From a virus, in the IMG/VR virus record IMGVR_UViG_3300029913_000071, positions 1-34,321 of that record: a DNA stretch of 34,321 nt. One strand, written 5' to 3'. A model generated the notes under the pieces. The model was given only the letters and a program-made list of their open reading frames with translations. It had not been told where the DNA came from and ran no database searches. Of the stretch, positions 25,972 to 27,007 are shown piece after piece. Each line of letters starts with the position of its first letter. Positions within the stretch are counted from its first letter, which is position 1. The position numbers and the translations under genes were made by a program.

Positions 25972-26229
25972 TTATTTCTTATTCTCTATAAATATTTGCT
26001 GTTCTAATTCTTTTATTGAAGTTTCTATGTCTACTAGCATCTCTATTATATCAATTGAAGCTTCTAAATCTATTATATTAGCTGAATTATCTCTTGTTTC
26101 TTGTAATTGAGTTTTTAAAGTCTCTAAACCTTCAATTGATTTTAGAATAGCTTTAATATCAGGATGTAGAAGTAAGTGCTCATTTGTATTTTCTAATATT
26201 CTTTTATTTATTTCATCCATTTTAGACAT
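25972..26229 (-). CDS. Small coiled-coil protein overlapping the sigma factor gene
   Basis: This 85-residue protein starts 8 bases before the end of the sigma factor gene and so is translationally coupled to it. It is acidic and helical throughout, with heptads of Leu/Ile (LETLKTQLQET, IDIIEMLVDIETSIKELEQQ), a likely two-segment coiled coil. No family is recognised. Small proteins encoded right after sigma factors are often their regulators, such as anti-sigma factors, and FliA has FlgM; there is no visible FlgM similarity. A partner of the downstream methyltransferase is equally possible. Confidence 0.6.
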   Translation of the reverse strand: MSKMDEINKRILENTNEHLLLHPDIKAILKSIEGLETLKTQLQETRDNSANIIDLEASIDIIEMLVDIETSIKELEQQIFIENKK

Positions 26230-27007
26230 ATTTGGCCAGCTTATTTAATGTTTCTTTATGTAATTGACTTATTCTGCTCTCTGTAATCCCTAATTCTCTT
26301 CCTATATCATATAATCTTTTGTCTTTGAAATAGTGTCCATCAATTATAGCTTTTTCTCTTTCAGTTAATGGACATGCCTTTAATAGACTTTTTAATGTTT
26401 CTTTATCCTCTATATTTAGATATCTATCTGTAGTATCTTCAAAATCTGCTATAGTTGCCACAGAGGAATCTTCATTTAACATTGAAAATTGACTAACTAT
26501 TGTACTTTTTTTTACTGCTATATCAACTTGTTTCTGAGTTAATACATCAGAGCTAAAGGTATTAGTAGTATCATCATGTTTTATTAGTTTTAAGGCAGCT
26601 CTAGTGCTTCTTGATACAGTATCTTGACTTCGTAAATAATCCAATAAGGCTCCTCTAACTCTATACCAAGCATATGTTCTAAACGAACAATCTTTTGATG
26701 TGTCAAAGTTATTATATGTTTCTAATAGACTTACCATACCTATTTGTTTTAATTCATCTCTTAATTCTGGTTGTATGGCCTTAGAACCAGAACGTCTAGC
26801 TTCATTATATATTTTATTTACACTACTTTCTACTACATCAAAATATTGTTCTATATTTTTATAGTCTTTTTTATTATTCAGTTTGGTATTCTTAGGAGTT
26901 AATAATCTAATTAGCTCTTGTTTCTCCCCCTGCTCCCTATTAGAGAGTTTTAATTTGTTAGTAAGATATTCCAATCGTAATTTTTTATCTTGTTCACTAT
27001 ACTCCAT
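26222..27007 (-). CDS. FliA/sigma-28-like RNA polymerase sigma factor
   Basis: This 261-residue protein would direct RNA polymerase to a particular promoter class. Region 2 (about 85-130) contains GMVSLLETYNNFD, SFRTYAWYRVRGALLDYLRS and, just after, VSRSTR; E. coli FliA has the closely matching [18 protein letters not shown] and VPRSVR. Region 4 (about 213-258) has LTEREKAIIDGHYF, a helix-turn-helix IGRELGITESRISQLH and a closing helix, again like FliA (ESRVSQLH). Region 3 is present but short. The start ATG follows TATAAGGAATCT. Because the promoter-reading segments match FliA, it should recognise FliA-like sites, and two occur in the late region. Host flagellar takeover is an alternative role. 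Confidence 0.92.
   Translation of the reverse strand: MEYSEQDKKLRLEYLTNKLKLSNREQGEKQELIRLLTPKNTKLNNKKDYKNIEQYFDVVESSVNKIYNEARRSGSKAIQPELRDELKQIGMVSLLETYNNFDTSKDCSFRTYAWYRVRGALLDYLRSQDTVSRSTRAALKLIKHDDTTNTFSSDVLTQKQVDIAVKKSTIVSQFSMLNEDSSVATIADFEDTTDRYLNIEDKETLKSLLKACPLTEREKAIIDGHYFKDKRLYDIGRELGITESRISQLHKETLNKLAKYV

Follow-up and report, generated by a model that had tools for sequence, protein, structure and literature searches.

Sigma-factor cascades of phages are known from a few models, SPO1 and T4 among them, and every model has a promoter code of its own. The middle promoters of SPO1, AGGAGA-N17-TTTNTTT, are not of the FliA type, and the middle genes of T4 are served by MotA/AsiA and not by a sigma factor. 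SPO1 encodes phage sigma factors for middle (gp28) and late (gp34) genes (PMC9429907), and T4 gp55 has homology to sigma region 2 and belongs to a late system whose promoters show an element resembling the -10 but no conservation at the -35 (PMC7892883). The consensus published for bacterial FliA is TAAAGTTT-n11-GCCGATAA, and a change of the first -35 T in the aer promoter lowered the value from 223 to 23 units (PMC2859248). Group 2 jumbo phages encode minimal and RpoD-like sigma factors and lack an RNA polymerase of their own; the terms FliA and sigma28 are absent from the main text of that survey, and its passages on these phages that were consulted describe no FliA-type promoter class (PMC7824862). 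Among the matches listed in the open-licence literature, none deals with a FliA-type phage sigma factor together with FliA-type phage promoters, which is weak evidence of absence.

Here we analyze a window of 34,321 nt from an environmental phage (IMGVR_UViG_3300029913_000071, positions 1-34,321), together with its relatives. The reading that we consider probable is a two-step cascade on the host RNA polymerase, in which a FliA-like factor would switch on middle genes and a second sigma factor, and the latter would switch on late genes. Serving the middle and the late genes by separate phage sigma factors would follow the logic described for SPO1. In contrast to SPO1, region 2 alone is recognizable in the late factor proposed here. 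Among the papers listed, none describes a cascade with a FliA-type first step.

A FliA/WhiG-like sigma factor beside a split DNA polymerase

The reverse complement of the window is contained entirely in a 56,081-base record, IMGVR_UViG_3300029915_000034 (parent contig, G1). The + strand of the window carries a structural cluster with a baseplate wedge, a head-tail adaptor and others, and on the minus strand are the sigma gene and a family A DNA polymerase that is split in two (Table 1). Genes were called with a simple caller built for this analysis, and some noncoding assignments are therefore approximate. The polymerase halves are separated by other genes (28626-33422), including an endonuclease-like one at 29912-30724, and the identical split is found in two related phages, G3 (193155 and 202237) and G4 (8257 and 3163). 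G3 is the 213 kb contig IMGVR_UViG_3300037010_001227, with a 177-base terminal repeat, and G4 is IMGVR_UViG_3300028666_000375.

Table 1. Coordinates of the features discussed, numbered from the first letter of the window.
Feature	Position	Strand	Remarks
Class-2 site AATTAAGT	1534..1541	+	26 nt before gene 1560
Class-1 (FliA-type) promoter-like site TAAAGTTC-N11-GCCAATAC (whole: TAAAGTTCTTTCTACTGTTGCCAATAC)	6113..6139	+	Matrix rank 5 in G1
Homing-endonuclease-like gene, behind the 6113 site and inside the structural cluster	6159..7226	+	Putative, by match to a G4 protein
Class-2 site AATTAAGT	7235..7242	+	24 nt before gene 7259
Class-2 site AATTAAAT	14399..14406	-	28 nt before gene 13989-14378
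Class-1 (FliA-type) promoter-like site TAAAGTTT-N10-ACCGATAC (whole: TAAAGTTTTTTATCATTTACCGATAC)	19277..19302	+	Matrix rank 2 in G1
104-aa gene behind the 19277 site	19379..19693	+	Start by ribosome-binding-site score
Class-2 site AATTAAGT	20221..20228	+	10 nt before gene 20231
Class-2 site AATTAAGT	23378..23385	+	Overlaps previous stop codon; 19 nt before GTG 23397, 28 before ATG 23406
Terminator-like stem-loop, bidirectional	24336..24357	both	Where the structural and replication/sigma clusters converge
FliA/WhiG-like sigma-70 family factor, 261 aa, regions 2 and 4	26222..27007	-	Pfam, NCBIfam, PDB alignment
Family A DNA polymerase, C-terminal part	28626..29930	-	Same strand as sigma gene
Family A DNA polymerase, N-terminal part	31581..33422	-	

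The sigma ORF exceeds the Pfam gathering scores of both Sigma70_r4 (5.6e-11) and Sigma70_r2 (1.4e-10). Its best NCBIfam model is FliA (1.5e-32) and the next is FliA_WhiG (4.5e-32), ahead of WhiG and SigB/F/G, with scores that lie under the curated cut-offs (113.4 bits against 201 for FliA, and 111.6 against 189.6 for FliA_WhiG). Related factors are encoded in the same gene neighbourhood, at 61% in G4 and 30% in G3. These relatives are also under the cut-offs (FliA/FliA_WhiG 116.2/112.3 and 118.6/131.1), and the top model for the factors of the window, G4 and G3 is FliA or FliA/WhiG (113-131 bits). The nearest PDB sequences are 6pfv and 6pfj, both named 'RNA polymerase sigma factor', followed by FliA chains including that of Escherichia coli.

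When aligned to E. coli FliA (6pmi_F), TYAWYRVRGALLDYLRSQDTVSRSTR of the window factor pairs with the counterpart segment of FliA, and ESRISQLH pairs with ESRVSQLH. R, D, R and R are kept at positions 116, 123, 126 and 133, which align with R74, D81, R84 and R91 of FliA, reportedly specificity residues (Koo et al. 2009). This alignment and the NCBIfam ranking, the latter below cut-offs, uphold the view of the earlier note that the factor is FliA-like in the segments reading the -10 and -35 elements, and a FliA/WhiG-like assignment is supported by sequence comparison. The factor is not of the gp55 type, defined by a region 2 without a region 4 to read the -35, as its region 4 is present. Its predicted structure has a pLDDT of 60.6. 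Scans of viral contigs with the window factor for wider relatives returned already known phages only, and a scan of genome contigs returned three distant bacterial sigma factors.

Two scans of more general scope were also run. A sigma-70 promoter scan of positions 18000-34321 was uninformative (96 sites against 93 in shuffles), and a crude test for a phage-encoded RNA polymerase found no DFDGD motif in ORFs of at least 100 aa of G1, G3, G4, G17, G22 and G19.

Two motif classes in related phages

G17 (127 kb), G22 (80 kb) and G19 (68 kb) are contigs with the second sigma gene. Left out of the counts were G18, G25 and G16 (99.5-100% identical to G17), G20 (100% identical to G19 over 24 kb), G5 (95% identical to G1), G2 (its sigma 100% identical) and sites without 45 nt upstream. 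G22 had been a candidate close relative of G1 (8.4 kb at 77% nucleotide identity) and was rejected as such, the longer matches being homing-endonuclease-like genes.

An unbiased k-mer search of upstream noncoding DNA of the relatives gave two leading families, CGATAY (class 1) and AATTAANT (class 2), with p-values uncorrected for the 16,384 7-mers and 65,536 8-mers. CCGATAT is the most enriched upstream 7-mer of G3, where 10 of its 27 copies fall in 3.6% of the sequence. Upstream copies make up 8 of 9 for CCGATATA in G17, 10 of 20 for CGATACT in G19 and 4 of 7 for CCGATAT in G22. When G3, G17, G22 and G19 were pooled, 31 of 137 copies of CCGATA were upstream-noncoding, which places it first of 180 anagrams (median 2%). 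Class 1 is absent upstream in G12 (0 of 12 copies).

For class-1 sites picked by the -10 hexamer alone, a T stands at -21, counted from the C of CGATA, in 33 of 42 sites, against 105 of 281 control copies. It is present in 9 of the 11 class-1 sites of G3, and FliA-type promoters with both -35 and -10 at N11 are found in this sigma-bearing genome. The match to the FliA -35 TAAAGTTT peaks exactly at this class-1 offset, which is also that of the published consensus (3.67 of 8 positions against 2.51 +/- 0.20, a value that no shuffle out of 1000 attained). After its first T the -35 is only weakly conserved, and the aer result fits this T being the most conserved -35 base of the class. A FliA -10 core combined with FliA -35 spacing supports FliA-type recognition of class 1. 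Like the system of bacterial FliA/sigma-28/sigma-D, that of the phage combines a factor with regions 2 and 4 with a CCGATA core and, at equal spacing, a T of the -35. Unlike bacterial FliA promoters, its -35 is clear only at the first T and its -10 ends in Y, and, unlike bacterial FliA, the factor is encoded beside a DNA polymerase, scores below FliA cut-offs and would target phage genes.

The same likeness allows a different view, in which the FliA/sigma-D of the host reads these promoters and the phage factor has another target. The -10 core and the -35 spacing are those of bacteria, and the window factor is a distant relative of FliA. A FliA/WhiG-type sigma, on the other hand, sits in the same neighbourhood in all three phages with a known sigma locus, where it would be superfluous, and a phage that depends on host FliA would presumably fail in non-motile cells. 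We consider this view unlikely and favor recognition by the phage factor.

The FliA-type code is not shared by all phages that have a related sigma. Two unrelated phages found by similarity of their sigma factors to that of the window had no enrichment of CCGATA upstream of genes, namely a gut phage contig whose sigma scores above the FliA_WhiG cut-off (1 of 101 copies) and Bacillus phage Grass with a SigF/G-like factor (1 of 68 copies in 150,000 of its 156,648 bases).

In class 2, AATTAAGT is upstream-noncoding in 26 of 64 copies pooled from G3, G17, G22 and G19, and ranks first of 280 anagrams. A -35 was looked for in 91 class-2 sites and not found, as upstream information stayed at or below 0.10 bit; with subsampling to 42 sites the mean maximum was 0.20, against 0.63 for class 1. 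The same 91 sites (G17, G19, G22, G3, G12 and G24) fall into two distance groups, 19 at 10-12 nt and 37 at 20-28 nt before the start, with none between. The group at 10-12 nt, with which the window site at 20221 may be compared, would yield leaderless or near-leaderless late mRNAs.

The two classes precede different genes. Among annotated genes, class 1 fronts 14 of DNA or regulatory function and 2 structural ones, and class 2 fronts 2 and 12, respectively (Fisher p 1.3e-4, counting gene-contig pairs that are not independent). In G3, class-1 sites precede the genes for UvsX, primase, 5'-3' exonuclease, RecB-like nuclease, SbcD, DNA ligase and the 334-aa second-sigma protein; for the exonuclease and the RecB-like nuclease, the site lies within the end of the ORF in front. 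The major head gene is preceded by class 2 in 6 of the 6 contigs tabulated. There are exceptions: two phages have ACGATATG ahead of the portal gene, and in G22 the genes for the second sigma and for ribonucleotide reductase are each preceded by both classes.

FliA-type sites of the window

The earlier note had reported two intergenic sites with the FliA consensus, and both are present as described and noncoding. Raw counting of the consensus decides nothing in either direction. With up to 3 mismatches and spacers of 10-12, the window has 3 matches against 2.2 +/- 1.6 in 40 shuffles, 15 of which reach 3, so there is no enrichment; two of the three matches are intergenic, and intergenic DNA makes up 3-4% of the window. 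With the spacer fixed at N11, the pattern matched 2 times in the window and its reversed control 0 times; in the parent contig the numbers were 2 and 3, respectively. As consensus counts in the window prove little, the question was moved to the relatives.

A class-1 matrix was built from 42 sites of G17, G22, G19, G3 and G24, with the window's own contig excluded, and applied to both strands of G1 (56 kb) among positions passing a -10 floor. The 19277 site scored 15.1 and the 6113 site 12.4, the second and fifth ranks given in Table 1. Six hits in G1 reach at least 12, three of them noncoding (0.25 expected) and three coding (ranks 3, 4 and 6); 60 shuffles of G1 gave a mean of 1.6 such hits, and 3 of the 60 attained the top score of the contig. 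The k-mer enrichment of class 1 in G1 alone is not significant ([TC]CGATA[TC] 1 of 5, p 0.09), and the top upstream k-mers of G1 differ. In summary, the raw consensus count is at chance level in the window, but the matrix trained on relatives places both sites near the top. The absence of a FliA site for the sigma operon, also noted earlier, holds within the window, but the first-ranked site of G1 (contig position 2405, noncoding and outside the window) is on the strand of the operon, about 26 kb upstream.

That the two sites are chance matches in AT-rich DNA is an idea that concerns the window sites alone and is compatible with the other alternatives. The raw count equal to that of shuffles, the parent contig level with its reversed control and the coding half of the best matrix hits would fit it. 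We nevertheless find it very unlikely, given sites ranked this high in 56 kb by a matrix from other phages, both of them noncoding and with genes behind. That they fit the FliA-type promoter class recurring in related phages is supported.

Both sites lie in the structural cluster. The 6113 site fronts the homing-endonuclease-like gene, and 6159-7226 and 1994-2863 (PHROG HNH endonuclease) match one and the same G4 protein. Behind the 19277 site is the 104-aa gene, for which 19379 is a better-scored start than 19310 and whose longer form (19310-19693) has no PHROG match at 0.01; by folding, it is followed by a stem-loop at about 19725-19744, entered on the minus strand. The cluster carries class 2 as well. 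The window has five copies of AATTAAGT, one elsewhere and four 10-26 nt before + strand genes of this cluster, and the G4 orthologue of gene 23397 has the same motif at a similar distance. The looser AATTAA[GAT]T occurs 21 times in the window, mostly in coding DNA. The intron-encoded homing endonucleases of T4 have their own middle or late promoters (PMC2988022). This parallel is only partial because seven free-standing ones apparently lack a promoter in the same account.

These data bear on the idea, put forward in the earlier note, of a late switch consisting of the FliA-like factor alone, which would drive structural genes directly from FliA-type sites. In its favor, both window sites are within the structural cluster and the 19277 site precedes a gene of that cluster. 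The capsid and tail genes of the relatives, including the major head gene of every tabulated contig, nevertheless carry AATTAANT, four structural-cluster genes of the window itself follow AATTAAGT, and class 1 fronts mostly DNA or regulatory genes, by the 14 to 2 given above. A direct late-gene switch by a flagellar-type sigma is not supported, and we consider it unlikely; a FliA-type middle step fits better.

A second sigma factor and the proposed cascade

The second sigma of G3 is the 334-aa protein with a weak match to sigma region 2, scoring 20 under a Pfam gathering score of 24, and its family has 18 loci in IMG/VR including that of G3. In the seven members examined, Pfam region 2 was found in all (best 7.1e-5) and no region 4 at E 0.1. 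PHROG sigma factor 351 was matched by 6 of the 7 (best 2.1e-4), and the PHROG 'late sigma transcription factor' by 1 of the 7, weakly (E 0.17). The best hit of a PDB profile search was also weak (0.19, to a bacterial sigma), and the structure model (pLDDT 36.3) was too poor to use. Together with class 2, which has no -35, this region-2 factor fits the late system of T4 gp55; the likeness is one of anatomy, and the sequence signal for kinship to gp55 is weak.

Before the second sigma gene, CCGATAY is found in 5 of the 18 loci (L055, L056 and L068-L070) and TCGATAC in 2 (L057 and L058). G3 and the lineage of G22 are among those with class 1 at this place. Two features of a two-sigma cascade were found, namely two sigma factors in one genome (G3) and the proposed middle class before the proposed late sigma gene in 7 of 18 loci. 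Eight loci have only a CGATGT variant (L059-L065 and L072), which in G17, a member of that group, is not enriched upstream (0 of 22). Two have none directly (L066 and L067); on their contig, G19, TCGATAC lies one gene upstream of the second sigma. This tally covers 17 of the 18 loci, all but L071.

In the cascade that we favor, the FliA/sigma-D-type factor would bind host core RNA polymerase and guide the enzyme to those phage promoters in which a -35 beginning with T and a (C)CGATA(C/T) -10 stand at FliA spacing. These class-1 promoters would turn on middle genes for recombination, replication, nucleotide metabolism and some homing endonucleases, and also the gene of the divergent second sigma, of which region 2 alone is recognizable, as in T4 gp55. 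The second sigma would then read -10-only AATTAANT promoters ahead of capsid and tail genes. The 6113 and 19277 sites would belong to the FliA-type class. Computation shows that the protein resembles this family, that there are two motif classes, one of them with a -35 spaced as in FliA promoters, and that the classes go with different gene functions. The pairing of each sigma with its motif and the timing of the steps we infer, the pairing because the anatomy matches, regions 2 and 4 with a -10/-35 promoter and region 2 alone with a -10-only promoter.

The roles could in principle be swapped, with the FliA-like factor reading AATTAANT and the region-2-only factor reading CGATAY, and the FliA-like gene does adjoin the structural cluster. 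This is hardly credible when only class 1 has a -35, only the FliA-like factor has a region 4, and CCGATA is the -10 core of FliA itself. The weakest link of the favored cascade is co-occurrence, since G3 is the only genome that has the two motif classes along with both sigma genes, FliA-like and second. A FliA-like profile matched none of 17 second-sigma contigs, a result that is uninformative and not contrary because G17, G22 and G19 stop short of the sigma locus by gene mapping. For the phage of the window, one sigma gene is seen, on a partial contig.

If the cascade is true, it would show a phage timing its own genes with a regulatory code taken over from hosts, the sigma factor along with the promoter. 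The cascade would make promoters of uncultured phages directly testable, and training on relatives followed by ranking in the target would be a way to read such codes without a cultured host. There may also be cross-talk with host motility, which is governed by this code. More tentatively, we can imagine that the lineage built its middle programme on a captured flagellar-type sigma and promoter code, coupled it to a gp55-like late sigma and so wired infection and host motility together, the phage factor firing or titrating host flagellar genes, or host FliA priming middle genes; we hold this to be possible, with more doubt than confidence.

Some other features of these genomes are worth recording. 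Three mutually related homing-endonuclease-like genes are found in the window (1994-2863, 6159-7226 and 33423-34313), with related copies in G4, G17 and G22; the G4 copy at 20048-20743 has GCCGATAT immediately upstream. Runs of small genes (about 60-130 aa) occur at about 8.9-13.7 kb and 17.3-20.5 kb of G1 and at 27015-27281 and 28340-28639 of the window, and many match the same G4 proteins and are apparently paralogous. The baseplate wedge protein of the window had a sole match in the phages collection at 1e-5, to positions 562532-563992 of LR756511.1, a 595 kb uncultured phage (28.8% over 44% of the wedge), a hint of huge-phage kinship.
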